The notes under the pieces: generated by a model
Told to the model about the DNA's origin: nothing
Database searches by the model: none
Seen by the model: the letters and a program-made list of their open reading frames with translations, nothing else
Assembly: GCA_018056685.1 (NCBI GenBank)
Contig: JAGPFC010000013.1
Span: 1 to 64,000 of the forward strand
From: Smithella sp.
GTDB lineage: Bacteria > Desulfobacterota > Syntrophia > Syntrophales > Smithellaceae
DNA: 64,000 nt
Direction of reading: 5' to 3'
Shown here: in pieces, positions 38,851 through 53,101 of the stretch
Numbering within the stretch: position 1 is the stretch's first letter
Layout: every line of letters starts with the position of its first letter
Made by a program: the position numbers and the translations under genes

Positions 38851-41439
38851 TCACGCGAAAAAGCAAATCATCTTCTGCGTGACGATATCCGAAAGCAGGC
38901 GCAAATCCTTGGCCCGCACATCATAGACATGAACCACTTTGGCAAAGCGCGCGTCATTCGGCATCAAATCCGTCAAAATATTGGGTTGTTTCTTCATCAA
39001 GGCCGTATTGAAAATGACCTCTTTCTTTTCCGGGTAAATGGCCATGTAAAAAATGTCCATTTCCACCATGTCCTGGAAAAAATGTGTGCCGAAAGACAAA
39101 TCGGGAATCAGAGAACCGTCGTGATAAGCGATTTCACCGATGGCGGTGATGTTGTTGATTTCCGAAAAAGTGACCGGAACACCCATCGCCGGTGTCGTGG
39201 TTCCCCATCTTCCGGGTCCCAGCAGAATCGTGGGCATGACATCTCTTTTACCGATTTGTTTATTCAGCTTACCGACCAGTCTGGCGACGTCGTGTTTTTC
39301 AGACAGACCTAGTGCCGCATATCCTTTGGGATCAATATAAATAATTCTCGATATGGCCTGATAAACGCTGCCGCCCATAAAATTGGCTTCCTGTTGGAGC
39401 AGAATTTTTGATTTGTTGATTTTTTCCGGCAGTTCCACCCGGCTGTAATGTCCCTTGGTCTGAAAAGGGCGGCATTGCAGAAGATTGATCTTCGGTTTGC
39501 CCTCGGCATTGAAGTTGGCCGTAAATTCGATATCAACCGGATAGCGGTAAACCTGCTCCAGTTTTCGAAGCATGTTAGACATCGTTTTAGGAAAGGGGGT
39601 GCTCTGGAGCAATTCGTCGAAGGTCAGAATCCAGGTGTCTTTTGCCACTCTGCCCAGGGACCGTAGATATTCCGCCGCGGCCATGTCTCGCGTGGCGATC
39701 ATGTCCAGATGTGATTCGATGGATTCATCAAGCAAGTCGGACGCAGGAAGGGATTGAAAATAATTCTCCTTCAGATTCAGCAGATCCACTTCATTTTGCG
39801 AAAATCGTCTGATGTCTTCCTGTTTGGAATAAGGTTTAATCAGCGGGGCATCCAGCGCGACGATGCGCGGGTAATCGTTTTCCACGCGATTGACCGCCCG
39901 GGTGCCCAGACCAAAAACAATACGCAGCATGCCGGCTTTCGGGTCCATGCCTTTCTGCCAGACAAAAGTGTTGTAGGAAAGGCCGACGCCGGCGAGATCC
40001 GGGAAGAAATACATGTTGCGATGAGAACCGGACACCCGCTGGACAAGAAGCGCCATCTGCTCGTCCTGCTGGGCCATCCCGCGCTGCAGACGGTACGTCA
40101 GGGCGTCTTCGTTCATCGCCGAAGCGAAAATTTTCTTTACCGCATCTTCAAAATTTTTATACCGGGTTTCCGGCGTGCCCTGATTGGGACAAAAATAGCT
40201 TTCATATTTGCCGGCAAAGGCGTTACCGAATGCGTCTTCCAAAAGTGAACTGGAACGAACAATAATGGGCGACTGACCGAAATATTCCAGCATGAAGAGA
40301 AACTGTTCCTTGACTTCATCCGGGAAAACGCCATGCAGCATTTTCTCCTTCAGTTCTTTGGCCACTTTAAAATATCCTTCATCGGTTTTCTGCTCCATCA
40401 GCAGTTTCCACCAGCCGTTTTGCACCATGTAGGAGTAAAAAATATCCGATCCAATGTAAAAGGAATCGTGAAGTTCCAGCTCGGCATCCCAGTCAAACGT
40501 CGGATCTTTGCGCAGAATATTGCGCGCCAGCAGCATGCCCACGGACTTGCCGCCGATAAATCCCGTACCGATCAGCCGTTTTTTGATCTCCACAAGATCT
40601 TCCAGTGTGAAATATTCTTTGACCAGCGAAAGCATTCTTTTTTCCCGTCCGATCATCACGCGGGAAAGCGTTTCCACCATCTCCTGTTTTTCCTGAACTG
40701 CACCCGGATCTTCCAGAAGATTATTGGCTTTCAGAAAAATGCGGTCCCAGTAATCGAGATTGCGCTCGCTGCTGGTGGCATTCTTGTCCGTCAGATAGGA
40801 CAGGATGCTGGCGGCATCGGCGCTGTTCAGTATCGGAACAAATTTGTCGCCTTCCATGATGTGCGGCAGAAACATGGTTGGGGTGTAGCGTTTCCAGGCT
40901 TTGAGTGGATGGATGCATATTTTACCTTTATTGTTATAAACATCAAGCAGGACCTGCGTGGTTTCACGAATCCGGGCAATCGTTTTGAAAGAATGGCGGC
41001 TGCGCAGAATGGCGAAATAAGCCACGGTGTTTAATTCGAACAGATAAGGACAGGTGATGACGAAGAAATTGCCGATCATTAAATCCGTTGCCCAGGCCAT
41101 CAGCAGATCGGAGAGGCAATCGAAAACATAAAACACATCCAATCCCTCATCACGGACAATGTTATGCACCTGTGTGGAAAACGATTCAAAACCCTTGTTG
41201 GCATTGAGTTTATAAACTTTAATTTTTTTATTGGGTTCCAGAATAGGTGGGTGATTGGCAAATCGCATATAAACCAGTCGACGATTCTGAGCAAGGGCTG
41301 TTTTGACGTAAGGATTGACAAATTTTTTGTAATCCTCAATATCGTCAACCTGCAGAACGACATTGTCACCCATTTGTAAATAATTCAGAATTTCATCCAG
41401 ACCGTTTATTCCTGTGCTGACCCGTGTGTATGGTGCCAT
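38851..41439 (-). CDS. PPDK_N (PEP/pyruvate-binding ATP-grasp) protein with RecA/KaiC-like N-terminus
   Basis: An 862-residue protein. Residues 1-230 begin VSTGINGLDEILNYLQMGDN, the opening of a KaiC/RecA-like ATPase, but the Walker A loop GxxxxGK(T/S) is missing. A helical linker follows. From about 285 comes a pyruvate phosphate dikinase N-terminal ATP-grasp: GTGFIGGKSVGMLLARNIL, SPIIVRSSSLLEDAFGNAFAGKYES, LALLVQRVSGS-type and FGLGTRAVNR. NLLQCRPFQ ends the PPDK_N fold, followed by a C-terminal region with LLGPGRWGTT. The phosphohistidine swivel and PEP/pyruvate TIM-barrel domains are absent, so it is not a complete PEP synthase. It may transfer phosphate to another target. Monocistronic, with palindrome GTACAAAATTGTAC 32 bases upstream. 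Confidence 0.8.
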   Translation of the reverse strand: MAPYTRVSTGINGLDEILNYLQMGDNVVLQVDDIEDYKKFVNPYVKTALAQNRRLVYMRFANHPPILEPNKKIKVYKLNANKGFESFSTQVHNIVRDEGLDVFYVFDCLSDLLMAWATDLMIGNFFVITCPYLFELNTVAYFAILRSRHSFKTIARIRETTQVLLDVYNNKGKICIHPLKAWKRYTPTMFLPHIMEGDKFVPILNSADAASILSYLTDKNATSSERNLDYWDRIFLKANNLLEDPGAVQEKQEMVETLSRVMIGREKRMLSLVKEYFTLEDLVEIKKRLIGTGFIGGKSVGMLLARNILRKDPTFDWDAELELHDSFYIGSDIFYSYMVQNGWWKLLMEQKTDEGYFKVAKELKEKMLHGVFPDEVKEQFLFMLEYFGQSPIIVRSSSLLEDAFGNAFAGKYESYFCPNQGTPETRYKNFEDAVKKIFASAMNEDALTYRLQRGMAQQDEQMALLVQRVSGSHRNMYFFPDLAGVGLSYNTFVWQKGMDPKAGMLRIVFGLGTRAVNRVENDYPRIVALDAPLIKPYSKQEDIRRFSQNEVDLLNLKENYFQSLPASDLLDESIESHLDMIATRDMAAAEYLRSLGRVAKDTWILTFDELLQSTPFPKTMSNMLRKLEQVYRYPVDIEFTANFNAEGKPKINLLQCRPFQTKGHYSRVELPEKINKSKILLQQEANFMGGSVYQAISRIIYIDPKGYAALGLSEKHDVARLVGKLNKQIGKRDVMPTILLGPGRWGTTTPAMGVPVTFSEINNITAIGEIAYHDGSLIPDLSFGTHFFQDMVEMDIFYMAIYPEKKEVIFNTALMKKQPNILTDLMPNDARFAKVVHVYDVRAKDLRLLSDIVTQKMICFFA

Positions 41440-41470
41440 AATAATTTATCCTCATCTTAATTTTGTTAAG

Positions 41471-41484
41471 GTACAAAATTGTAC
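41471..41484. promoter_or_regulatory. Palindrome GTACAAAATTGTAC (candidate activator site)
   Basis: A perfect 14-base dyad. The same pattern, GnACAAATTTGTnC, recurs at 41718-41731, 49642-49655, 49746-49759, 51769-51782 and 51798-51811, always near sigma-54 promoters of this island. This copy is also 32 bases upstream of the PPDK_N-type gene, so it could serve either direction. Confidence 0.5.
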
Positions 41485-41647
41485 TTCATAAATCGGCTGA
41501 TTATCATCAAAAGCCATTGCGCAAAAAAATCCCATCTTCAAAATAACAAACTTTATCAATACATTACAGCAGAAAAGCATTATCTGGCAATATCTGTCTT
41601 TGATTTTATCCAAAATCAAAAAAGCTTTTCTGTAATTGGTTAATCAA

Positions 41648-41696
41648 TTTTTGTGCCATAAAGATTCAAAAGACTATTTTTGTGCCATCAAGGTTC
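41648..41696. repeat. 20-bp direct repeat upstream of amtB1
   Basis: TTTTTGTGCCATAAAGATTC at 41648-41667 and TTTTTGTGCCATCAAGGTTC at 41677-41696 (18 of 20 identical) are offset by 29 bases, close to three helical turns. TTGTGC matches half of the island palindrome. They are placed about 215-245 bases upstream of the sigma-54 element, where enhancer-binding proteins commonly sit. Confidence 0.6.
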
Positions 41697-41717
41697 TCTT
41701 TTGTATCTCACTCATCT

Positions 41718-41731
41718 CAACAAATTTGTAC
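41718..41731. promoter_or_regulatory. Candidate enhancer site upstream of amtB1
   Basis: CAACAAATTTGTAC matches the island palindrome GnACAAATTTGTnC except at one outer base. It lies about 165 bases upstream of the amtB1 sigma-54 -24 box. Confidence 0.45.
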
Positions 41732-41895
41732 TTTTTTAGGAGTGAAAGCCAGATGAATCATGTTTCTTCAGCCGGGCTGTTAAAGCACATAATTCAGATC
41801 TAATTTTTAAAATGATACAATAATGTCCGCTTTTTATAAACATGATTTTAATATATTTATTAGTAATTACAATAGTTTGTAAATATTATCCCTGT

Positions 41896-41912
41896 TTGGC
41901 ATAATCATTGCC
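41896..41912 (+). promoter_or_regulatory. Sigma-54 promoter of amtB1-glnK1 operon
   Basis: TTGGCATAATCATTGCC has GG (41898-41899) and GC (41910-41911) ten bases apart, as required for -24/-12 elements. Transcription would start near 41923, about 31 bases before amtB1. Confidence 0.8.
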
Positions 41913-41953
41913 CTTAGTAAAAGGGAAACAATTTTTATGAGGAGGTGTTGATT

Positions 41954-43189
41954 ATGATGAATTCGGGAGATACAGCATGGGTCTTAACCGCCAGCGCGCT
42001 GGTCTTATTAATGACCATTCCGGGACTGGCCTTTTTCTATGGAGGATTGGTTCGCCGCAAGAACGTCCTCTCCATTTTGATGCAATGTTTTGTTATTGTC
42101 TGTGTCGTCAGTCTACAGTGGATGCTGTTCGGCTATTCGCTGGCTTTTGGTCCTGACTTTCATGGCATCATCGGCAAACTGGACTGGATGGGTCTGGCAG
42201 GTGTCGGCTCTTTACCGAATCCGGATTATTCCAAGGGCATTCCGCATTACGCCTTTATGATTTTCCAGGCCATGTTCGCCATTATTACACCGGCGTTGAT
42301 TATCGGGGCTTATGCAGAGCGGGTCAAGTTTTCCGCCTTCCTGGTTTTTACCCTCCTTTGGACGACGTTCGTTTATGATCCGCTGGCGCACTGGGTCTGG
42401 GGTGTTGGAGGGTGGATGCGCAATCTGGGTGCGCTGGATTTCGCCGGCGGAATAGTCGTGCATGTCAGCTCCGGAATTTCGGCCCTGGTTCTTGCTTTAC
42501 TGCTGGGGAAGAGAATCGGTTACAATCATCAACCCATTCGTCCGCACAATCTTCCTTTTACGGTTCTGGGGGCGGCGCTCTTGTGGTTCGGCTGGTTCGG
42601 CTTCAATGCGGGCAGTGCGCTCGCCGCGGACGGTCTGGCCGCCAATGCTTTTGTGACCACACATATCGCCACGGCCGCCGCCGGTCTGACCTGGGCCCTG
42701 GTGGAATGGTGGCACAACGGTACACCAACCATTCTGGGTGCCGCGACCGGTGCCGTGGCCGGACTGGTTGCGGTGACTCCCGCCTGCGGTTTTGTCAATC
42801 CGATGAATGCCATGTTTATCGGTATGATCGTCGCCGTCGTCTGCTATATCGCGGTTGCAATCATTAAGGGAAAACTCGGCTATGACGACTCTCTGGACGC
42901 TTTCGGTGTACACGGCGTGGGAGGAACTGTCGGAACAATCGCTACCGGATTGTTTGCGGAAAAAGTTGTCAATGCCGCCGGAGCCGACGGTCTGCTTTTC
43001 GGGAATGCGCATCAGCTTTATGTTCAGTCTCTATCGCTGATCGTGACCGTCGCCTTTGCCGCGATCATGACCTTCATCCTCTTCAAGATCGTGGATGCGA
43101 TGATGGGTATGCGCGTGGAAGAACATAATGAAATCGTCGGCTTGGATTTGACGCAACAAAGCGAAGCCGCTTATACCGTGATTGAATAG
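41954..43189 (+). CDS. amtB: Ammonium transporter (first copy)
   Basis: A 411-residue Amt/Rh-type channel for ammonium with about 11 membrane helices. AFFYGGLVRRKNVLS lies in the first helices. The twin pore histidines are in GGIVVHVSSG and FGVHGVGGT, and the QxxFA-type gate reads MIFQAMFAIITPALI. ATG 41954 follows GGAGG by eight bases. Sigma-54 control and co-transcription with glnK1 12 bases downstream are the classic arrangement for nitrogen-limited ammonium uptake, with the PII protein plugging the channel when nitrogen is ample. Confidence 0.96.
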   Translation: MMNSGDTAWVLTASALVLLMTIPGLAFFYGGLVRRKNVLSILMQCFVIVCVVSLQWMLFGYSLAFGPDFHGIIGKLDWMGLAGVGSLPNPDYSKGIPHYAFMIFQAMFAIITPALIIGAYAERVKFSAFLVFTLLWTTFVYDPLAHWVWGVGGWMRNLGALDFAGGIVVHVSSGISALVLALLLGKRIGYNHQPIRPHNLPFTVLGAALLWFGWFGFNAGSALAADGLAANAFVTTHIATAAAGLTWALVEWWHNGTPTILGAATGAVAGLVAVTPACGFVNPMNAMFIGMIVAVVCYIAVAIIKGKLGYDDSLDAFGVHGVGGTVGTIATGLFAEKVVNAAGADGLLFGNAHQLYVQSLSLIVTVAFAAIMTFILFKIVDAMMGMRVEEHNEIVGLDLTQQSEAAYTVIE

Positions 43190-43201
43190 GAGGAATGAAT
43201 C

Positions 43202-43543
43202 ATGAAACTCGTTATCGCCATCATTCAACCGCACAAACTGGAAGCGGTGAAAAAAGAACTGGAGGCCGTGGACGTCAATCTGATGACCGTCACCAATGTT
43301 CTGGGACAGGGCAGGCAAAAGGGCGTCACCGAAATATACCGCGGCGCGAAGGAAGCAGGTGGTTTGCTCAATAAAGTCAGACTGGATATCGCCGTGAATG
43401 AGGACTTTGTGGAACCGACGATTAAAGCGATTACCAAAGGAGCCCATACGGGATCCGTCGGCGATGGAAAAATATTTGTCGTGGAACTGGCTGAGTGCAT
43501 CCGCATCAGCAGCGGCGAGCGCGGTGGTATAGCCATCGGTTAA
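43202..43543 (+). CDS. glnK: PII signalling protein GlnK (first copy)
   Basis: A 113-residue PII trimer subunit. It opens MKLVIAIIQPHKLEAVKKEL; the T-loop reads GRQKGVTEIYRGAKEAGG, and TGSVGDGKIFV is the B-loop. Counting along the T-loop, the residue that is uridylylated in enteric PII (Tyr51, RGAEY) is glutamate here (RGAKE), so GlnD-type uridylylation at that site is not possible, although Tyr46 is kept. It should sense ATP/ADP and 2-oxoglutarate and gate the neighbouring AmtB. It lies 12 bases after amtB1. Confidence 0.95.
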   Translation: MKLVIAIIQPHKLEAVKKELEAVDVNLMTVTNVLGQGRQKGVTEIYRGAKEAGGLLNKVRLDIAVNEDFVEPTIKAITKGAHTGSVGDGKIFVVELAECIRISSGERGGIAIG

Positions 43544-43553
43544 GGTGATCATC

Positions 43554-43757
43554 ATGAGTATCCACATACCTGATACCAGGATAAATGCTTTGCAGCGTTG
43601 CGTTTCCGAATGCGAAAAAGCAGTCATCGAGCATGTTTTGTTAAAAACGAAAGGGAACCAATCAGAGGCCGCTGCACTTTTAGGAATCAACGAAAGGGCC
43701 CTGGCGGATAAAATGCATCAATATGAAATTGATTGTGCCCGATTCGAATTAAAATAA
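43554..43757 (+). CDS. Free-standing Fis-type helix-turn-helix protein
   Basis: A 67-residue protein consisting of little more than the DNA-binding end of an NtrC/Fis-type activator. ALQRCVSECEKAVIEHVLLK precedes NQSEAAALLGINERALADKM, the recognition helix pair. No receiver, GAF or AAA+ domain is present, so it cannot activate sigma-54 by itself. It is the third gene behind amtB1 and glnK1 (gap of 10 bases) and ends 21 bases before the porin-like gene. AAGG lies eight bases before ATG 43554. It could compete with, or help, the NifA-like activator at 50155 on shared sites. Confidence 0.75.
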   Translation: MSIHIPDTRINALQRCVSECEKAVIEHVLLKTKGNQSEAAALLGINERALADKMHQYEIDCARFELK

Positions 43758-43778
43758 TTGAAAAGGAGAAATCAAACG

Positions 43779-44651
43779 ATGAACAACAATTTAAATACAA
43801 GGATTATAATGACTTTAATGACACTGATATTGATCTCGTTCCCCTTGATGACCTGGGCAGCGGAGGAATCGAAACCGGCCGAACAAATACCGGCAGAAGA
43901 TAAGGTCACCGGCGAGGTGGCGGCCAGTGTTTTAAGCGCCTATATCTGGCGCGGCCAGGAACTGACGCGTCACAGTATTGTGATTCAGCCTTCTATGACA
44001 GTCGGCTATAAAGGTTTTACCGCCAACGCTTGGGGCAATCTGGATACCAATCCCTACTCAGCTGCGGACGGAGAATATGCGTCCAACTTTACAGAAACGG
44101 ATGTGACCTTATCGTACACCCGTAAGTTCGGCATCGTTTCCACCGGTGTCGGCTATATTTATTATGGTTTGTCGGCGGCAACTCCCGGCGGGCCGGACCT
44201 GACGGATTCCCAGGAAGTATTTGTAACCATGGGGCTGGATACGATTCTTGCGCCGACTCTGACCGTCTATAAGGAAATCGATCATTACCATCAATGGTAT
44301 GCGACGCTGGGGATTGCTCACACCTTTGCGTTACATGAAAGAGTAGGTTTGAAGCTGGCGGCTCAGGCCAGCTACCTGAAGAGCGAGGATGAAACAACCT
44401 ATCCCGAATTTGACGGTGATGCGCAGGCAACTGACAATAAGTTCAGCAATTTCCATGATGGAATGATTTCCATTTCTGTGCCCGTTGCCGTTACCGGTCA
44501 TCTGACACTGACCCCGACAGCAACATGTGTTTTCCCGCTGTCCGGTGACGCCAAGGATGAAATAAAGGGGCGTGGCCTGCAGGGCACGATCCCCTCTGAC
44601 AGGGATGACTCATATCTTTATGGAGGAATCGTTCTGAGTTTTACTTTCTAA
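43779..44651 (+). CDS. Outer-membrane beta-barrel (TorF-like porin) protein
   Basis: A 290-residue exported protein. The signal peptide (about 1-27, ending MTWAAEE) is followed by alternating beta strands (VAASVLSAYIWRGQELTR, QPSMTVGYKGFTANAWG) and a terminal phenylalanine (GGIVLSFTF), as expected for outer-membrane barrels. The early SAYIWRG pattern resembles TorF/Gcw_chp-type putative porins. It may pass nitrogenous solutes, given its place behind amtB1-glnK1. ATG 43779 follows AAGGAG by ten bases. A strong terminator follows at 44680. Confidence 0.75.
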   Translation: MNNNLNTRIIMTLMTLILISFPLMTWAAEESKPAEQIPAEDKVTGEVAASVLSAYIWRGQELTRHSIVIQPSMTVGYKGFTANAWGNLDTNPYSAADGEYASNFTETDVTLSYTRKFGIVSTGVGYIYYGLSAATPGGPDLTDSQEVFVTMGLDTILAPTLTVYKEIDHYHQWYATLGIAHTFALHERVGLKLAAQASYLKSEDETTYPEFDGDAQATDNKFSNFHDGMISISVPVAVTGHLTLTPTATCVFPLSGDAKDEIKGRGLQGTIPSDRDDSYLYGGIVLSFTF

Positions 44652-44679
44652 TAAAAGTGAACGAAATTTAATCAATCGC

Positions 44680-44718
44680 CGCTGCAATTGCATTGTCACA
44701 AATTGCAGCGGCTTTTCG
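44680..44718 (+). terminator. Rho-independent terminator of amtB1 operon
   Basis: GCCGCTGCAATT (44680-44691) pairs perfectly with AATTGCAGCGGC (44703-44714), followed by TTTT. The 12-base stem is strong, so the downstream glnN1 needs its own promoter or read-through. Confidence 0.85.
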
Positions 44719-44769
44719 AAGATCAGAAGAACAGGAGTTTAAGAATATTAAATATTGCAAGGAGGATTT

Positions 44770-46938
44770 ATGAAAAAAACAAATTCAAACATCGCATCAG
44801 AACGGAATTATCAAATTGCCAAGGAAAAATGTGTCCCGGTTTCGGTCTATTACGGCGAGGATACCTTCAGTTACAAGGTGATGAAGGAAAAGCTGCCGAA
44901 AGACACCTATAAAAAACTGATGGACATTATGAATGAAGAAAAAACACTCGATCTTGAAACGGCCAACATCGTTGCCCATGCCATGAAAGAATGGGCCATT
45001 GCCAAAGGGGCAACGCATTTTGCTCACTGGTTTCAGCCGATGACCGGCATGACGGCGGAAAAGCATGATGCTTTTGCCGATCCCGTGGGGGTGGGCGAAG
45101 TTGTGGAAAAGTTTTCCGGCAAACAACTCGTGCAGGGCGAACCGGACGCGTCCAGTTTTCCCAGCGGCGGAATCCGGGCGACATTCGAAGCGCGGGGCTA
45201 CACCGCCTGGGATATTTCGTCCCCCGCTTTTATTCGCCGAAGCGGTATTTCGACAACCCTTTGCATCCCGACGGCTTTCATTTCCTACACAGGGGAAGCA
45301 CTGGATAAAAAGACGCCGCTGCTCAGATCGAACAAAGCCGTCAGCAAAAGCGCCGTCAATATGCTGAAACTGCTGGGCAGCAAAAAAGTTAAAAAGGTTT
45401 TTTCCACCCTGGGGCCGGAGCAGGAATATTTTTTGATTGACATGGATTATTTTTACAAACGACAGGACCTTCTGCTGGGCGGCAGAACGGTTGTCGGTGC
45501 GCCGCCCGCCAAAGGTCAGGAGCTGGAAGATCAGTATTTCGGCAGCATCAAGGAAAGAATATCCTCTTATATGCATGATTTGGAAGAAGAGCTTTTTAAA
45601 CTGGGCATTCCGGCCAAAACCAGACACAATGAAGTTGCGCCCAGTCAGTTTGAAATCGCTCCCGTTTTCGAGGAGGCAAATCTGGCGGTCGATCATAATC
45701 AGTTGGTCATGGATACGATCAAGTCCGTTGCCAAAAAACATTGTCTGGCGGGCCTGCTTCATGAAAAGCCGTTTGCCCGGATTAACGGTTCCGGCAAGCA
45801 CCTGAACTGGTCATTGTCCGACGACAGCGGCAATAATTTGCTCACGCCCGGTGACAAGCCGCATGATAATATTCAATTCCTGGTTTTTCTCGTGGCCATC
45901 ATCAGCGCAGTTTATAAACATGCCGATATTCTTCGGGCATCGGTTGCTTCGTACGCCAACGACCACCGGCTGGGCGCCAATGAAGCACCGCCCGCGATTA
46001 TTTCGGTTTTCCTCGGCGATCAGCTCACAAAAGTTCTGGCCGACATCGAAGCGGGCGTGGTGACCAAAGCAACGGACGAAGAAATCATCGATCTGGGGGT
46101 TGCCGCCATTCCCGTTGTCAGCAAGGATAATACCGATCGCAACCGGACGTCGCCTTTCGCGTTTACCGGCAACAAATTTGAATTCCGTGCCGTCGGGTCA
46201 TCACAGTCCATTTCCTTTCCCGCCGCGGTTATCAATACCATCGTTGCCGAAAGTCTGGACGAATTGGCGGAGAAAATCAAAGCCAGGGGCGGCAACACCA
46301 ATCAGGCTGTTTTTGACGTATTAAAAGCGGAAATCAAAAAGATCAAACCGGTTCTTTTCAACGGGGATAATTACACCAAAGAATGGGAAACGGAAGCAGC
46401 CAAGAGGAAATTGCCCAATGCCAAAACAACTCCGGCTGCACTCAAAGCGTTGATCACGGATAAAGCTTTAACGCTGTTTGAAAAATATGAAGTCCTTTCC
46501 AGGGTGGAATTGAACTCACGCTATTTGATTTATGTCGAAAAATACATCAAGGATCTGGAAATAGAAGTGAAATGCCTGAAAAATATCTGCCTGAGTCAGA
46601 TCATTCCGGCGGCTACGGCATATCAGAAGGATTTAACCAAGACCATGAACGGCATCAAGGACGTCCTCGGCGGCAAAACGGCGTGCACAGCTCAGCAGGA
46701 TATCTTAAAAAATTCGTTGGATCTGGTGAATAAAATCTATGCGGCCACGAAAGAGATTTTGGCGCAAGTGGATTCCATCTCCACCATCCATGATGAAGCC
46801 CAAAAAGCTGAAATGCTGTGCTCCAAGGTAAAAACCAGGATGGATGAATTACGTGAATATGCCGACGCCTTGGAAGAAATCGTTGACGACGAATTATGGC
46901 CTTTGCCGAAGTTCTGGGAGATGCTGTTTATCAGTTAG
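44770..46938 (+). CDS. glnN: Type III glutamine synthetase (first copy)
   Basis: A 722-residue enzyme that makes glutamine from glutamate, ammonium and ATP. The length is far above type I (about 470), and motifs are those of GlnN: FAHWFQPMTG, DASSFPSGGIRATFEARGY, LGPEQEYFLID, KTRHNEVAPSQFEIAP, NGSGKHLNWS, and DNTDRNRTSPFAFTG near the ATP/glutamate site. GGAGG precedes ATG 44770. It is highly similar to the second copy at 57182. No sigma-54 element is seen in its own upstream gap, so it may be expressed differently from the amt genes. Confidence 0.96.
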   Translation: MKKTNSNIASERNYQIAKEKCVPVSVYYGEDTFSYKVMKEKLPKDTYKKLMDIMNEEKTLDLETANIVAHAMKEWAIAKGATHFAHWFQPMTGMTAEKHDAFADPVGVGEVVEKFSGKQLVQGEPDASSFPSGGIRATFEARGYTAWDISSPAFIRRSGISTTLCIPTAFISYTGEALDKKTPLLRSNKAVSKSAVNMLKLLGSKKVKKVFSTLGPEQEYFLIDMDYFYKRQDLLLGGRTVVGAPPAKGQELEDQYFGSIKERISSYMHDLEEELFKLGIPAKTRHNEVAPSQFEIAPVFEEANLAVDHNQLVMDTIKSVAKKHCLAGLLHEKPFARINGSGKHLNWSLSDDSGNNLLTPGDKPHDNIQFLVFLVAIISAVYKHADILRASVASYANDHRLGANEAPPAIISVFLGDQLTKVLADIEAGVVTKATDEEIIDLGVAAIPVVSKDNTDRNRTSPFAFTGNKFEFRAVGSSQSISFPAAVINTIVAESLDELAEKIKARGGNTNQAVFDVLKAEIKKIKPVLFNGDNYTKEWETEAAKRKLPNAKTTPAALKALITDKALTLFEKYEVLSRVELNSRYLIYVEKYIKDLEIEVKCLKNICLSQIIPAATAYQKDLTKTMNGIKDVLGGKTACTAQQDILKNSLDLVNKIYAATKEILAQVDSISTIHDEAQKAEMLCSKVKTRMDELREYADALEEIVDDELWPLPKFWEMLFIS

Positions 46939-46958
46939 TCCACGTTGCAGAAGTGAAA

Positions 46959-46974
46959 TGGCATGGCATTTGCT
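46959..46974 (+). promoter_or_regulatory. Sigma-54 promoter-like element upstream of tRNA-Gln
   Basis: TGGCATGGCATTTGCT matches the -24/-12 consensus TGGCAyG-N4-TTGCw at every fixed position, with GG (46960-46961) and GC (46972-46973) ten bases apart. Transcription would begin near 46985, ahead of a hairpin, tRNA-Gln and an amidotransferase gene. A weak TATTAA at 46991 could be an alternative sigma-70 -10 box. Confidence 0.6.
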
Positions 46975-47002
46975 CTGAATTCGCAGGTGGTATTAAAAAC
47001 GC

Positions 47003-47040
47003 GGCAGGATGTAACGATTATGTATCGGGAACATCCTGCC
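47003..47040 (+). other. Leader hairpin before tRNA-Gln
   Basis: GGCAGGATGT (47003-47012) pairs perfectly with ACATCCTGCC (47031-47040) around an 18-base loop. No T-tract follows, so it does not look like a terminator. It may be a processing signal or a structured leader. Confidence 0.6.
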
Positions 47041-47057
47041 GGTTGTAAGTGACGCAC

Positions 47058-47131
47058 TGATGGGTCGTCTAATGGTAGGACAACAGGTTCTGGCCCTGTG
47101 AATCGAGGTTCGAGTCCTTGCCCATCAGCCA
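47058..47131 (+). tRNA. tRNA-Gln(CTG)
   Basis: A 74-base cloverleaf. The acceptor TGATGGG pairs with CCCATCA without mismatch, and the D-arm is GTC/GAC. The anticodon stem ACAGG/CCTGT encloses TTCTGGC (anticodon CTG), and the T-stem CGAGG/CCTTG encloses TTCGAGT. Discriminator G and encoded CCA end at 47131. It sits 19 bases before a glutamine amidotransferase-family gene inside the nitrogen island. Confidence 0.95.
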
Positions 47132-47150
47132 TTTATAAAAAGGAAACAAT

Positions 47151-47849
47151 ATGCGCGCACATTATTTACAACACGTTCCCTTTGAAGGTTTGGGCAGCAT
47201 AGAGTCCTGGCTTAAAAAATCCGGATACGAAATTACCAGCACAAAATTGTTCGATGGTCCTGACTTCCCGGATCTCAGGAAGATAGACTTTCTCATCGTC
47301 ATGGGCGGTCCGATGAGCGTCAATGATGAGGATAAGTTGCCGTGGCTGGCTGCAGAAAAAAAATTCATTTGGGATACCATCGCCAAAAATAAACCGGTGC
47401 TGGGAATCTGCCTGGGCGCGCAGCTGATCGCGAATGTGCTGGGCGCCAGCGTGTATCCCAATAAGGCAAAAGAAATCGGCTGGTTTTCGATCCATGGAAT
47501 CGTAACGAACGACAAATCCATTTTTGAAATGCCGGCGTCGCTCAAAGTATTCCAGTGGCACGGAGAGACATTTGATTTGCCCGCGGGCGCAGTCCGTCTT
47601 GCGAAAAGCGACGTATGCGAAAATCAGGCATTTCAGATAGGCACGTCGGTTATCGGCCTTCAATTTCATCTGGAGACCACGCCTGAAGCCGCACGAGCGC
47701 TTGTTTCCAACTGCGGTGATGACCTGGTTGAAGCGCCCTACATCCAGACCGATCAAGAAATCATGTCTGCCGGGACGGAGACATTCCAATCGATTAATCA
47801 CCTGATGGACGAGGTGCTTTCTTTCCTGGGCAACAATAAATCGCTGTAG
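47151..47849 (+). CDS. Class I glutamine amidotransferase (GMP synthase GATase-like)
   Basis: A 232-residue protein. MGGPMSVNDEDKLPWL, the nucleophile elbow LGICLGAQLIANVLG (Cys) and QFHLETTPE (His-Glu) give the full class I triad. It resembles stand-alone GATase proteins annotated as GMP synthase-like or gamma-glutamyl hydrolases; the true acceptor is unknown. It starts 19 bases after tRNA-Gln, with AAAGGAA just upstream, and may share the sigma-54-driven transcript. It could in principle serve the amidotransferase-less GuaA-like protein at 7485, but nothing in the sequence ties them together. Confidence 0.9.
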   Translation: MRAHYLQHVPFEGLGSIESWLKKSGYEITSTKLFDGPDFPDLRKIDFLIVMGGPMSVNDEDKLPWLAAEKKFIWDTIAKNKPVLGICLGAQLIANVLGASVYPNKAKEIGWFSIHGIVTNDKSIFEMPASLKVFQWHGETFDLPAGAVRLAKSDVCENQAFQIGTSVIGLQFHLETTPEAARALVSNCGDDLVEAPYIQTDQEIMSAGTETFQSINHLMDEVLSFLGNNKSL

Positions 47850-47891
47850 ATAAATATCGTTAGATCAAGATGCTTAAAATTTTATCTCAGG

Positions 47892-48269
47892 TTATTTCTT
47901 TCTTTTTTCATCAATATCGCCCGGATACATCATGGCGTCCGGTCCCCGTTCACGGGTACGAACCCGAATGACGTCTTCAACGGGTGTAACAAAGATGATA
48001 CCATCTCCCGTTTCTCCCGTGTAAGCCGACGTGAGAATCGCCTCCAGCGCGGCTTCGAGATTGCGATCATTCAAAACGATATTGATTTGTATTTTCGGAA
48101 GCATGTTGACCTGATAGGTTCCGGCGCGTCCAACCAGCTGGACACCTCCCTGACGGCCGTGACCCCGGACCTCAAACATGTTCATGCCCACAATGCCTAT
48201 CTCCTTAAGAGCGCACATCACATCGTTCACTTTATCTTCGCGAATAATGGCTTCTATTTTCTTCAACAT
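47892..48269 (-). CDS. glnB: PII signalling protein GlnK (second copy)
   Basis: A 125-residue PII protein. MLKKIEAIIREDKVNDVMCAL opens it. The T-loop GRQGGVQLVGRAGTYQVNMLPK is unlike that of the first copy, but aligned residue by residue it keeps a tyrosine at the position of enteric Tyr51. The B-loop reads TGETGDGIIFV, and a charged C-terminal tail extends about 12 residues beyond the usual end. It is downstream of amt2 (37-base gap), so it probably gates that transporter. ATG 48269 lies eight bases after GGAG; a GTG at 48272 is the alternative. Confidence 0.93.
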   Translation of the reverse strand: MLKKIEAIIREDKVNDVMCALKEIGIVGMNMFEVRGHGRQGGVQLVGRAGTYQVNMLPKIQINIVLNDRNLEAALEAILTSAYTGETGDGIIFVTPVEDVIRVRTRERGPDAMMYPGDIDEKRKK

Positions 48270-48308
48270 CACGATATCTCCAATGAAAAAATATTTTCAA
48301 ACAGGATC

Positions 48309-49535
48309 CTATGAATACGATCGTTCGCCGTGGGAACTGATATCCAGACCCACTTCTTCTTCCATGGGGCTTACCCGCAGGCCGATGCTCATATCCAATA
48401 CCTTGGCCAGCACGTAGGTCATCCCGAAGGCAAAGGCTATGGTGACAATCACGGCAATCATCTGAATGCCGAACTGATTGGGATTACCGAAAAACAAGCC
48501 GTTGGCTCCACCGGTGTTAACGGTCACGGTGGCAAATAATCCCGTGGCCAGTGTGCCCCATAGGCTGGACATACCGTGACAGGCCCATACATCAAGCGAT
48601 TCATCCAGCTTGCGCCGGTCACGGAAGCGGATGGCATAATAACAAATCGGTGCCGCTACCGCGCCGATGGCCATAGCCGCAAGAGTTGTTACATAACCGG
48701 AAGCCGGAGTCACTGCAGCGAGTCCCACCACCATTCCGGTGGCAATTCCCAGGGTGCTGGGTCTGCCGTCCAGCCAGGAAAGCATCATCCAGACCAGGCC
48801 GGCCGCCGCCGCCGAAGTGTTGGTTGTAACCAGAGCGTTTACCGCCACGCCGTTTGCCCCGAGGGCGCTGCCCGCGTTAAAGCCGAACCAGCCAACCCAC
48901 AGCAGGCCTGTTCCCAAAACGGTAAGGGGAATATTGTTCGGTTCTATCGGCACCTTTCCGTATCCTTTGCGCGGTCCGATAACCAGAGCAAACGCCAAAG
49001 CCGAAAAGCCCGCGGCGATATGCACAACCGTTCCGCCCGCAAAATCAAGAACGCCCATTTCCTTGAGCCATCCGCCCTGACCCCAGACCCAGTGGCAAAG
49101 AGGATCGTAAACCAGCGTAGCCCAGAGAAGACTGAAAAGCAGGAAGCTCTTGAATTTGACCCGTTCAACAAAAGCGCCGGTGATTAAAGCCGGGGTGATA
49201 ACGGCAAACATCATCTGAAACGCGGCAAAAAGTTGGTGAGGAATGGTAGCGGAGTATGCGGTATGAGGCTCGGCACCGACACCTTTAAAACCCGCAAAAT
49301 TCAATCCGCCGATCCATCCGCCAATATCCGGGCCGAAAGAAAGAGAATATCCAAAAAGAATCCACTGAACACCGATCAACGACAAAAAAATATAACTTAA
49401 GGTTAGCGTGGAAAGAACATTTTTTCTTCTCACCATCCCGCCATAAAAAAACGCCAGAGCCGGCGTCATTAAAAGAACAAGCGAACAGCACACCAAGATC
49501 CAAGCGGTATCGCCCGCACTGATTTGAGCATCCAT
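48309..49535 (-). CDS. amt: Ammonium transporter (second copy)
   Basis: A 408-residue Amt protein with about 11 membrane helices: PALAFFYGGMVRRKNVLSTL, pore histidines in GGTVVHIAAG and ACHGMSSLWGT. The second histidine segment differs from the first copy (HGVGGTVGT), as in Amt subfamilies often partnered by NifI/GlnK2-type PII proteins. GGAGG sits six bases before ATG 49535. A sigma-54 element at 49572-49587 drives it, with glnK2 as second gene. Having two Amt-PII pairs suggests different affinity ranges. Confidence 0.95.
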   Translation of the reverse strand: MDAQISAGDTAWILVCCSLVLLMTPALAFFYGGMVRRKNVLSTLTLSYIFLSLIGVQWILFGYSLSFGPDIGGWIGGLNFAGFKGVGAEPHTAYSATIPHQLFAAFQMMFAVITPALITGAFVERVKFKSFLLFSLLWATLVYDPLCHWVWGQGGWLKEMGVLDFAGGTVVHIAAGFSALAFALVIGPRKGYGKVPIEPNNIPLTVLGTGLLWVGWFGFNAGSALGANGVAVNALVTTNTSAAAAGLVWMMLSWLDGRPSTLGIATGMVVGLAAVTPASGYVTTLAAMAIGAVAAPICYYAIRFRDRRKLDESLDVWACHGMSSLWGTLATGLFATVTVNTGGANGLFFGNPNQFGIQMIAVIVTIAFAFGMTYVLAKVLDMSIGLRVSPMEEEVGLDISSHGERSYS

Positions 49536-49571
49536 TTCATTCCTCCCGTTAAAATATCTTGATCAAGGATT

Positions 49572-49587
49572 AGCAATAATCTTGCCA
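49572..49587 (-). promoter_or_regulatory. Sigma-54 promoter of amt2-glnK2
   Basis: Read on the minus strand, TGGCAAGATTATTGCT has GG and GC exactly ten bases apart. Transcription would start near 49562, leaving a 27-base leader. Confidence 0.8.
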
Positions 49588-49641
49588 TGATATTTATATA
49601 TTAAATACAGTTGCTTATGTAATAATGAGTAGAATTGACTT

Positions 49642-49655
49642 GTACGGATTTGTGC
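49642..49655. promoter_or_regulatory. Candidate enhancer site upstream of amt2
   Basis: GTACGGATTTGTGC fits GnACnnATTTGTnC. It is about 55 bases upstream of the amt2 -24 box. A related CACAAATGTGCC follows at 49675-49686. Confidence 0.4.
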
Positions 49656-49745
49656 GTTCAGGGATGAAATAAAACACAAATGTGCCGATTTTAATAATTC
49701 GATGCCGACGCTGTATAAAAAATTTAAGTTTGGTAGTGAAATAAT

Positions 49746-49759
49746 TTCAAATTTGTAAC
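49746..49759. promoter_or_regulatory. Candidate enhancer site between amt2 and activator
   Basis: TTCAAATTTGTAAC carries the AAATTTGT core of the island palindrome. It lies about 160 bases upstream of the amt2 promoter and 300 bases upstream of the activator promoter. Confidence 0.35.
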
Positions 49760-50058
49760 TTTTAATAATGACAAAGATATATCTTTTCTCTGTGAACGCC
49801 ATCCTGCTTTTTTTCATTTTCGTGAAATATCTATCCGGCGCAAGCAAAATTCAAATCGTCAAAGAGTTCAAACGGAAAAAGACCTGCCCCGATAAAACAG
49901 AAATACGAATCGCGCCTGTGACTACATCATTCAATCCCCAGAATGAGTTCTTATAATTTTCTATATATATTTAACCTTAGATTGATTTAATATTATCTGT
50001 AATCAATTCCCTCAACAATTTTGAATTTTTTTGTATTTTTTACAAAGTTGTCTTCATT

Positions 50059-50074
50059 TGGTACGCACTTTGCG
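50059..50074 (+). promoter_or_regulatory. Sigma-54 promoter of the NifA-like activator gene
   Basis: TGGTACGCACTTTGCG is a near-consensus -24/-12 element (TGGyACG-N4-TTGC) with GG-N10-GC spacing. It implies that the activator is itself sigma-54 dependent, probably autoregulated. The predicted start is near 50085, 70 bases before the gene. Confidence 0.8.
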
Positions 50075-50154
50075 AACCAAAGATCATGTTAATGATAAAT
50101 TGTTTGCATTTAGAACAATTATGTAACAAAATACTTTTCGTGAGTTGATCCGTT

Positions 50155-51735
50155 ATGAGCAACACCACAAAAAAATCTTTAAGTGAGAGAGAAGGAAAAT
50201 TGAGCATTCATACTTACGAAGAATTGGCCGCCTTGCATGCGGTAGCCAAAATTATCGCCCAGCCGCTGGATTTACGAGAGCAACTGGAGCAGGTCCTGCA
50301 GGAAATGAGTTCACGTTTGGGAATGCAGCGTGGCATGATATCTCTGGTGGACCGCGAAAAGAAGGAAGTCTGGCTGGATGTAGCTCATGACGTAAATATT
50401 GAAGGGTTGGAAGTAACGTATAAGCCGGGTGAAGGCATTACCGGTAAAGTTGCGGAAACAGGCCGTCCGATGGCAGTGGCCAATCTTGGTCAGGAAACCC
50501 ATTTCCTGGATCGTACTGGTGCGCGCCGTAATTTGAACCGTACAGAACTTTCTTTTTTGTGCGTGCCGATTATCTATGATTCCAGTGTCGTCGGAGTCTT
50601 ATCAGCCGATAAAGTCGCTCTGGATGTGGAAAAACTGGATAAGGAACTGGCCCTGCTGTCTTCGGTTGCAGAACTGATGGCCAAAGCCGTGCACATCCGC
50701 GGCCTCGAAGAAGAAAACAGACGCCTGCGCAAAATTGTCGGTCAGAACCGTGCGCCGTCCATGGATATTATCGGTCATTCCAAAGCCATGCAGGAAGTTT
50801 TCGGACTGGTCGCACAGGTGGCTGATTCCAACACAACAGTTCTGATTACCGGAGAGACAGGTACCGGCAAGGAGTTAATTGCCCGTGCCATTCACAATAA
50901 TTCCCCACGCAAGGGCGGGCCGCTGGTGCAGGTCAACTGCGCGGCGATTCCCGATACGTTGATAGAAAGCGAATTGTTCGGCCATGAGAAAGGCGCGTTT
51001 ACCGGAGCCTTGACGCAACGCCGTGGACGCTTTGAGGAAGCCAACGGCGGCACCATTTTTCTGGATGAAGTCGGCGAACTTTCCGCCGCTGCCCAAGTGA
51101 AGCTTTTACGGATTCTGCAAGAGAAACGCTTTCAGCCATTGGGTTCTTCGCGGGTGGTCAATGTCAATGTCCGGATTATCGCCGCCACCAACCGTAATCT
51201 GGAGCAGGATATTCTCTCTGATCGTTTTCGCGCTGATTTATTCTACCGACTGAACGTATTCCCGATTTACCTGCCGCCGCTTCGCGAGCGCGGCAGCGAT
51301 GTAATCCTGCTCGCTGATCACTTTATTCTTAAATACAGCGGTGAGATGGGCAAGCACGTGAAAAGAATTTCCACCGCCGCCATCGAAGTTTTCCTGAATC
51401 ATAAATGGCCGGGAAATGTTCGCGAACTGGAAAACTGTATCGAGCGCGCTGTCTTGTTATCCAAGACCGATACGATAGATTGTCAGCATCTTCCGCCATC
51501 GTTGCAGATCAAGGAAAAAGAAGTTGAAAGGAAGGATAAGAGCAAACTTTCCACTGTTGTGGAAGCCCAGGAAAGGGCTTTGATTATTGAAGCGCTGGAA
51601 GAAACCGGCGGCAATCAGACCAAGGCTGCCCGGAAACTGGGTACAACCAAACGCATTATCCAGTATAAGATATCGAAAATGGGCATCAATTCCAAATTAT
51701 TCAAAAAGAAGGCAGGCGAATCCCATCAACGGTAA
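50155..51735 (+). CDS. NifA-like sigma-54-dependent activator (GAF-AAA+-Fis)
   Basis: A 526-residue enhancer-binding protein. An N-terminal GAF domain (about 22-185) is followed by an AAA+ domain with Walker A GETGTGKE (233-240), the sigma-54-contacting GAFTGA (280-285), Walker B GTIFLDEV and the arginine-finger region [14 protein letters not shown] Fis-type HTH ends it (about 480-512; [20 protein letters not shown]). The architecture matches NifA, but there are no nif genes here and the interdomain cysteines of oxygen-sensitive NifA are absent. The surrounding amt, PII, glutamine synthetase and glutamate synthase genes point to control of ammonium assimilation. GAF might bind 2-oxoglutarate or contact PII. 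Confidence 0.93.
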
Positions 51736-51768
51736 TTCATTCGTTTTTTATAAAAATGGATTAAAAAA

Positions 51769-51782
51769 GCACAAATTTGGTT
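51769..51782. promoter_or_regulatory. Candidate enhancer site upstream of glutamate synthase (distal)
   Basis: GCACAAATTTGGTT fits the island palindrome in its left half and centre. It is about 115 bases upstream of the sigma-54 -24 box. Confidence 0.45.
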
Positions 51783-51797
51783 CAAAATTTATGAATA

Positions 51798-51811
51798 GAA
51801 CAAATTCGTGC
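51798..51811. promoter_or_regulatory. Candidate enhancer site upstream of glutamate synthase (proximal)
   Basis: GAACAAATTCGTGC fits GnACAAATTnGTnC. It starts 29 bases after the distal site, the same offset as the direct repeat before amtB1. Confidence 0.5.
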
Positions 51812-51896
51812 CGTTTAAAAACAAAAGTAAGTTTTATCGAGAGTGCAAAGACGCAAAAATGAAGGAAATACAAAAATGTAATTTATTTTTTGAATC

Positions 51897-51912
51897 TGGC
51901 ACGGCTTTGGCA
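51897..51912 (+). promoter_or_regulatory. Sigma-54 promoter of the glutamate synthase operon
   Basis: TGGCACGGCTTTGGCA has a perfect -24 box and GG-N10-GC spacing. The -12 box is TGGC instead of TTGC, so it may be weaker. Transcription would begin near 51923, about 48 bases before the first gene. Confidence 0.65.
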
Positions 51913-51970
51913 GTTATCATTGTGCGTTTTGATATTAAGACCGAAGAGAGTTTGGGAGGTTATAATTAAT

Positions 51971-53101
51971 ATGTGTCGCCTGTTTTCCATAACGAGTAAC
52001 GATCCTCTTTCGCCGATGGTGGCCATTCGCGCCATTGATGTGATGAAAGAAGGACACGACGGATCGGGTGTAGGCCTTTTTCTGACCGACCTCGGCGGCG
52101 AATTTCAGAATTTTAAAGACGAGCCGATTCTTTCCGGGATATTTTCAAATGAAGGATTGAAAAACCTTGACCGTTTTATGATTGATCAGGATTTCATGGT
52201 CAAATACAAACTTTCCATCAAACCGGCCAAGACACCTCCGGTGGGCACGCCGAAAAGAGATAATTATGTCATCCGGGTTTATGAATATCCGGCTGAATGG
52301 GAAAGCTTAAGCAAGGAAGAAATCCAGTTTCGTCTCATGATGGTGCAATTGCAACTGCGTCGCATGGGAGAGCAGGACGACTCCATGCTGATTTTCAGTT
52401 TCTGGCCCGATGTGATTATGATTAAAGAAGTGGGAGATCCACTGGCTGTTGCCGAATATCTGGGGTTGGACCGCAAGGAACTCACGGCGCGGGTCATCTT
52501 AAGCCAGGGGCGCCAGAACACGAATTACGCGATCAATATTTACGCCTGCCATCCGTTCTTTATCCAGGGAATGGCTTCGGCGACCAACGGAGAAAACACA
52601 GCCTTTGTGCCCATCCGCGAGTTTCTGAGTTCGCGCAACTTCCCGGGCTATACCGGTTATAACTCCGATTCGGAAGTTTTCACGCACATCTTGCATTACA
52701 TGCAGAATCAACTGGGCATGGGAATGGAAATGTACAAGCACATCATCACGCCGCTGAAAGATACGGAACTGGACCGGCATGCCAACGGAGACTGGCTGAG
52801 AAAGTTAAAGCAGGCCTGCCGGCCTTTGATTATTGACGGACCGAATTGCGTGATCGGCTGTCTGCCGGATAAATCCATGTTCATGGTGCAGGATTCGAAG
52901 AAACTTCGTCCCGGTGTTGTCGGTGGACGTCCCGGTTTGTTCGCCTTTTCCTCGGAAATGTGCGGCCTGGATGCGGCCATTCCGGACCGATATATCAACC
53001 TCGATTATCAACCGATGAAATATGAAACGGTTCTGGTGAATCGTGAACGTCAGGAGATAAAGAAATGGAATCAATTGGAACCATTAACCCATCCGCATTA
53101 A
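51971..53101 (+). CDS. Glutamate synthase, amidotransferase (class II) subunit
   Basis: A 376-residue protein starting Met-Cys-Arg-Leu-Phe. Removal of Met exposes the catalytic N-terminal cysteine of class II glutamine amidotransferases, so the start is fixed at 51971, with GGGAGG upstream. GHDGSGVG, ACHPFFIQGMASATNGEN and SDSEVFTHILHYM are the glutamine-binding segments. It hydrolyses glutamine and passes ammonia to the FMN subunit. A separate amidotransferase chain is the archaeal-type arrangement, in contrast to the single large alpha subunit of most bacteria. It overlaps the next gene by 37 bases. Confidence 0.9.
   Translation: MCRLFSITSNDPLSPMVAIRAIDVMKEGHDGSGVGLFLTDLGGEFQNFKDEPILSGIFSNEGLKNLDRFMIDQDFMVKYKLSIKPAKTPPVGTPKRDNYVIRVYEYPAEWESLSKEEIQFRLMMVQLQLRRMGEQDDSMLIFSFWPDVIMIKEVGDPLAVAEYLGLDRKELTARVILSQGRQNTNYAINIYACHPFFIQGMASATNGENTAFVPIREFLSSRNFPGYTGYNSDSEVFTHILHYMQNQLGMGMEMYKHIITPLKDTELDRHANGDWLRKLKQACRPLIIDGPNCVIGCLPDKSMFMVQDSKKLRPGVVGGRPGLFAFSSEMCGLDAAIPDRYINLDYQPMKYETVLVNRERQEIKKWNQLEPLTHPH

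Follow-up and report, generated by a model that had tools for sequence, protein, structure and literature searches.

Bacterial tRNA genes are regarded as sigma-70 genes whose expression is set by growth rate, and the known sigma-54 nitrogen regulons comprise protein genes together with some small RNAs such as NrsZ. Here we analyse a 64-kb stretch of Smithella sp. DNA (hereafter the window) that carries an accessory tRNA-Gln gene behind a candidate sigma-54 promoter, and compare it with related genomes. The closest described systems are the NtrC/NifA-type sigma-54 nitrogen regulons (glnA, glnK-amtB; the Geobacter RpoN regulon, PMC2725144), in which ammonium-assimilation genes likewise carry -24/-12 boxes with a pair of upstream enhancers, alongside a NifA-like activator; the Geobacter RpoN regulon study does not mention tRNA (PMC2725144). 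The rsr-yrlBA-rtcBA operon, controlled by RtcR and sigma-54 (PMC7790460), is likewise driven by an enhancer-binding protein and yields an RNA product with a tRNA-like domain, YrlA; however, YrlA is a Y RNA and not a decoding tRNA, and damaged tRNA rather than nitrogen sets the operon off. Anabaena sp. PCC 7120 likewise has accessory tRNA genes that a dedicated transcription factor, TrcR, holds silent until they are needed (PMC10272220). Its operon differs in comprising 26 genes on a megaplasmid under a repressor, and is not described as involving sigma-54 or a nitrogen-specific single isoacceptor. In E. coli, coupling of NtrC to relA (PMC4066584) likewise lets a nitrogen regulator reach a system that monitors translation, but through the ppGpp synthetase gene and not through a tRNA gene. 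A full-text search confined to the open literature found no earlier sigma-54 nitrogen-regulated tRNA gene.

A second tRNA-Gln gene in a nitrogen island

An intact tRNA-Gln(CUG) gene with encoded CCA lies at 47058-47131 on the forward strand (ARAGORN; Rfam RF00005, 56.8 bits), where the initial annotation had placed one behind a leader. It is a second copy beside the housekeeping CTG gene: the same genome, in which we count 42 tRNA matches, has two more tRNA-Gln genes, the housekeeping one (CTG) on contig C11 and another, with anticodon TTG, on C28. The accessory form, termed type 2, has the sequence signature TGAGGGGTCGTCTAA...TTCTGGC.... Type-2 copies are on average 89% identical to one another, against 72% for the housekeeping copy and 79% for the tRNA-Gln of the phylum's other classes, so that the type-2 tRNA looks like an ordinary phylum-type tRNA-Gln retained as an extra. 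The 22 distinct intact copies retain the CCA end, the anticodon and the cloverleaf: 98.4% of cloverleaf pairs are preserved, and 4 pairs show two-sided changes. The elements read by E. coli GlnRS, U1-A72, G2-C71, G73 and U35-G36, are all present in the window tRNA; its A3-U70 and G37 are unlike the E. coli set, yet common in tRNA-Gln of the phylum, and a GlnRS gene was found in the same genome.

Several other ideas about this tRNA were rejected. A special charging route through an absent GlnRS fails because GlnRS is present, plus two GatB copies. A strong CAG codon adaptation of the island was discarded with a CAG share of just 71% there versus 61% elsewhere (p 0.02). An integration site for a tRNA-borne mobile island, which would show the end of the tRNA directly repeated at the far end of the island, was dismissed because the window holds no second copy of the 25-base tRNA 3′ end with 3 mismatches allowed. 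As separate observations, the two GatB genes (G000:C41 and G000:C3; such labels are our own for genomes, contigs and loci) coexist with GlnRS, the second of them perhaps for tRNA-Asn or another amidation, and the housekeeping tRNA-Gln(CTG) adjoins glnS in many relatives (for example G009:C9:16422-18307).

The genes around the tRNA form a nitrogen island. On the forward strand, the ammonium transporter gene amt1 (41945-43189; PF00909) and the PII gene glnK1 (43202-43543; PF00543) precede a type III glutamine synthetase gene (44755-46938; PF12437, PF00120, PF18318), whose stop is 20 bp above the candidate promoter. Beyond the tRNA comes a forward-strand open reading frame for a class I glutamine amidotransferase-like protein (47151-47849; PRK07053-like; PF00117, E 6e-21), probably the second gene of the tRNA unit in the window. 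The PII gene glnK2 (47892-48272; PF00543) and amt2 (48309-49535; PF00909) follow on the reverse strand. The amidotransferase gene after 19 bases and the flanking glutamine synthetase and Amt-PII pair are thus as first annotated. Sigma-54-like sites precede amt1 (TGGCATAATCATTGCC, 41897-41912, forward strand, with the enhancer-like ACAATAATGT at 41817-41826, forward strand, 80 bp above it), amt2 (TGGCAAGATTATTGCT, 49572-49587, reverse strand) and the gene for a NifA-like enhancer-binding protein (TGGTACGCACTTTGCG, 50059-50074, forward strand).

The NifA-like protein, encoded at 50155-51735 on the forward strand, combines GAF, AAA+ and Fis-type HTH domains (PF01590, PF00158, PF02954) and scores 503.7 bits against TIGR01817, below the cut-off of 528.85. 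Its orthologue occurs in 19 of 20 genomes tested, both carriers and non-carriers of the tRNA, and the HTH stretch GNQ(T/S)xAAxxLG(T/A)TKRI(I/V)QY is nearly constant in the genomes compared. It is the likely activator of the tRNA promoter, since it is encoded next to it and putative enhancers stand at its own and the neighbouring genes.

Other features of the island were noted. Within 41440-52000, putative ACA-N4-TGT enhancers and sigma-54-like sites stand before amt1, the NifA-like gene and a glutamate synthase unit, with a degenerate enhancer form before amt2. Divergent from amt1 is a gene for a putative PEP-synthase-like protein of 862 aa (38851-41439) that recurs by nitrogen genes in many relatives, and a Gcw_chp-like outer-membrane-type protein is encoded between glnK1 and glutamine synthetase (43758-44651) and conserved in the amt1 operons of relatives. 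Two orthologues of the NifA-like gene (G053:C13:67625-69166 and G086:C301:345-1877) contain one TAG within the matched stretch.

A candidate sigma-54 promoter and leader

The sequence TGGCATGGCATTTGCT at 46959-46974 on the forward strand has GG at -24, GC at -12 and the GG-N10-GC spacing, so the coordinates and spacing annotated for this element hold. As a -24/-12 box it is almost perfect, lying close to TGGCACGN4TTGCW. With promoter consensus patterns of our own (strict form TGGCAYRN4TTGCW), it is the lone exact match in the window: on both strands of the 64 kb, exact TGGCAYRNNNNTTGCW matches number 1, with 0.09 expected, and 8 of 100 shuffled windows had at least one. When one mismatch was tolerated, the window yielded 5 sites versus 2.7 expected. 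Being near chance at this tolerance, the element is only suggestive from the window alone and cannot decide the matter; as a putative promoter it becomes convincing through the relatives described below. A pattern search of 46850-47950 did not find a sigma-70-type promoter (1.5 expected), and the genome encodes RpoN (TIGR02395, 442.9 bits, contig C35).

If transcription starts 12 nt past the -12 box, as sigma-54 geometry predicts, the leader would span 46985-47057 on the forward strand, which agrees with the 73 bases given before, and given normal tRNA processing RNase P is predicted to cut it off. Within it lies a hairpin (47002-47041, forward strand) whose stem, described initially as a perfect 10 bp, is indeed perfect but measures 11 bp (arms 47002-47012 and 47031-47041). 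The hairpin loop holds ACGATTATGT (47013-47022), one base off the regulon enhancer ACAATTATGT and 54 bp past the start of the -24/-12 box.

Distribution and gene neighbourhoods in the class

A class-wide search gave matches in 37 of 155 genomes. We counted 32 of them as type 2 and excluded five as housekeeping-like, four by sequence and G093 by low identity only, which leaves the type-2 tRNA missing from 123 of the 155. Carriers include Smithella sp. Go_SlDig_bin_11, Syntrophaceae bacterium bog_1110, HGW-Deltaproteobacteria-12 and -19, and a metagenome bin labelled Syntrophus aciditrophicus. Core nitrogen genes, defined as amt, glnK, glutamine synthetase, glutamate synthase (GOGAT) and the amidotransferase, lay within 1.5 kb of the tRNA in 24/32 cases versus 1/70 control tRNA loci (Fisher p 2e-15, a value that overstates the case, as do such p-values generally here, the genomes, most of them metagenome-assembled, being related and not independent).

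The neighbourhoods themselves differ. The tRNA stands after glutamine synthetase in the window and G002, after a Gcw_chp gene in G005 and G081, after the activator gene in G010, 101-229 bp past amt2-glnK2 in seven relatives (G023, G030, G057, G123, G150, G151 and G154) and between divergent amt2 and activator genes in G070, G072, G073 and G077. The orthologue of glnK2 is directly upstream of the type-2 tRNA in seven relatives. An amidotransferase gene follows the tRNA in G000, G002, G004, G005, G009 and G010, with gaps of 19 bases in the window and 73 in G002; elsewhere the tRNA occurs without it. What follows the tRNA varies between genomes and may be a gene for the amidotransferase, PII, the activator, DNA polymerase IV or a malate/lactate dehydrogenase, and in G086 no same-strand open reading frame of at least 80 aa follows for about 700 bases.

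Two wider patterns were sought and rejected. A conserved protein downstream of relocated tRNAs did not emerge, the 625- and 628-aa open reading frames of G024 and G042 being unrelated. Occurrence outside the class was also rejected: similar tRNA-Gln genes there resemble ordinary copies, often beside tRNA-Glu, and just one of them has a nitrogen-gene match, a weak one, within 1.5 kb.

Broken copies were observed in four genomes. Directly after glutamine synthetase, L070:9368-9441 (G004) and L072:9123-9196 (G009) are degenerate type-2 tRNAs: the anticodon has changed to CTT, the stems of the D and T arms are broken and ARAGORN makes no call. The adjacent amt1 yields short fragments only. In L189:896-969 (G074) and L192:1060-1133 (G071), the first 8 tRNA bases are replaced, so that the acceptor stem cannot form, and amt2 enhancers lie just upstream of the truncated tRNA. 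An own promoter was not found for any of these four copies. The type-2 tRNA gene is useful but, being broken in G004, G009, G071 and G074, dispensable.

Promoter and enhancer in the relatives

A -24/-12 element lies within 200 bp upstream of the type-2 tRNA in 7 of the 32 carriers by the strict pattern and in 12 by the relaxed one, the twelve sites being 47-148 bp above the tRNA. Neither pattern matched upstream of control tRNAs (0/89), and 16,000 random upstreams gave 0% for the strict and 0.46% for the relaxed form. Since the relaxed pattern and the enhancer motif were drawn up with some of these upstreams already in view, the fair yardstick is the random and control-tRNA rates rather than the p-values. 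The same element as TGGCATGGCATTTGCT precedes the type-2 tRNA in G002, G024, G020, G033, G076 and G081. The copy in G002, TGGCACGGCATTTGCT, matches in 15 of 16 bases at the same position, as the conservation check in close relatives proposed at the outset would have it. Recurrence of the element in 12 of 32 carriers likewise supports the original suggestion that a sigma-54 promoter may place tRNA-Gln under nitrogen control.

Of the 12 promoters, 9 have the motif ACAATWNTGT within 150 bp of the box on its upstream side (0.28% expected per region), at 75-79 or 105-107 bp, and in five of the nine another ACA-N4-TGT lies 27-29 bp below the first. The amt2 promoters have the same site type, at 106 and 77 bp in G057, 79 bp in G030 and 77 bp in G150. 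An activator site with amt2-like spacing, as a mark of regulon membership, is therefore found in the relatives and not in the window copy. G072 and G073 have such a promoter in front of a short PII-like gene that is followed by the tRNA; in G024, G042, G053 and G086, promoter and enhancer are kept with no core nitrogen gene nearby. A search of 395 phylum genomes for the strict element followed 110-140 bases on by a tRNA T-arm gave 3 cases (the window, G020 and G024), all of them type-2 tRNAs, and a reversed-pattern control in the same genomes gave zero matches.

The picture is not uniform. G005, G010, G004 and G009 have no own promoter, and seven further carriers have the tRNA behind the amt2-glnK2 operon; 11 of the 32 carriers (for example G010, G043, G085 and G125, and also the four with broken copies) have neither an own promoter nor a unit with a visible sigma-54 or enhancer site. 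As the genomes are related, the 12 promoters do not count as separate events; they fall into three families and several arrangements.

Possible activation of the window copy

Enhancers of sigma-54 promoters usually lie 70-150 bp upstream. At this distance, ACAATWNTGT was not found in the window, G002 or G081, and the initial annotation was right that the island palindrome is absent upstream of the element; the expected position falls within the glutamine synthetase gene. Between the window and G002, where the promoters are so alike, the leader is much less similar, a shorter hairpin is kept at the same place and the enhancer is missing in both. Because the usual enhancer is absent there, activation in the window must use another site (for example ACGATTATGT in the leader), draw on activator from solution or be weak. 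Other enhancer-binding proteins, FleQ for example, are known to have activator sites downstream of a promoter; ACGATTATGT as a substitute site is only a suggestion. Read-through from the glutamine synthetase gene is proposed as a second source of the tRNA in the window.

Proposed role and alternative readings

What we observe directly is an intact second tRNA that recurs in 32 genomes, in association with nitrogen genes and with a common promoter and enhancer layout. Judged from these sequence features, the accessory tRNA-Gln(CUG) gene very probably belongs to a NifA-like/sigma-54 nitrogen-limitation regulon. We suggest that when nitrogen is short, the NifA-like protein would bind ACAATWNTGT at about 76 and 105 bp above the -24/-12 promoter and switch on sigma-54 polymerase, and that the tRNA would be transcribed by itself, together with a neighbour gene or as the last part of the amt2-glnK2 operon. 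Trimming of the transcript would then yield a normal tRNA, which GlnRS would charge and which would read CAG codons. Both transcription from the -24/-12 promoter and its induction at low nitrogen are what we infer from this layout. A larger supply of tRNA-Gln under glutamine scarcity would be the benefit, since it would keep CAG decoding going; the CAG enrichment of the island (71% versus 61%) is slight backing for this.

A different benefit, under the same regulation, would be a starvation alarm, in which surplus uncharged tRNA-Gln stimulates a RelA-type enzyme and raises ppGpp. This is reasonable because the E. coli nitrogen response drives relA via NtrC, a coupling by another route (PMC4066584), and GlnRS would leave the tRNA uncharged at low glutamine; we consider it unlikely as the main benefit.

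That the -24/-12 element is a chance match, with the tRNA transcribed instead from a sigma-70 promoter that escaped recognition or through read-through of the glutamine synthetase gene, is improbable. The near-chance count of one-mismatch sites and the absent enhancer in the window speak for it, as do relatives that lack the element and have the tRNA directly behind another gene. However, promoter and phased enhancer together recur far above random or control rates, no sigma-70-like site was found in 46850-47950, and read-through would itself put the tRNA under a nitrogen gene.

The RNA could also now be mainly a regulatory or processing element, such as a tRNA-like RNA, an mRNA end or a cleavage mark, rather than a translational one. 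In seven relatives the tRNA forms the 3′ end of amt2-glnK2 units, and in G004 and G009 the cloverleaf partly survives with a changed anticodon. Against this stand the 22 distinct intact copies, which keep anticodon, CCA and cloverleaf with compensatory changes, and the resemblance of the type-2 copy to ordinary tRNA-Gln of the phylum's other classes, which make such a role very improbable.

Hardly credible is a promoter that serves the downstream protein gene (in the window, the amidotransferase) with the tRNA a bystander in its leader: the amidotransferase does follow at 19 and 73 bases in the window and G002, with no terminator-like site found between the two genes in the window, but the downstream gene changes between genomes, G086 has none on the same strand for about 700 bases, and it is the tRNA that stays constant, while the amidotransferase also occurs in many relatives that lack the tRNA. 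Most simply, then, the tRNA is the intended product of the promoter, in the window along with the amidotransferase, because it is the sole constant feature.

Placing the tRNA gene in the nitrogen-limitation regulon, we think it likely that an order of anaerobes has brought a second tRNA-Gln under its sigma-54 nitrogen regulon, with ammonium status setting the decoding capacity for glutamine codons and perhaps an alarm raised by uncharged tRNA. If this is true, nutrient sensing would be linked directly to codon decoding, through the tRNA for the very amino acid that reports nitrogen status, and a tRNA gene would serve as a metabolic effector. The long-discussed idea that the supply of an isoacceptor is adjusted to scarcity of its own amino acid would thereby be made testable.
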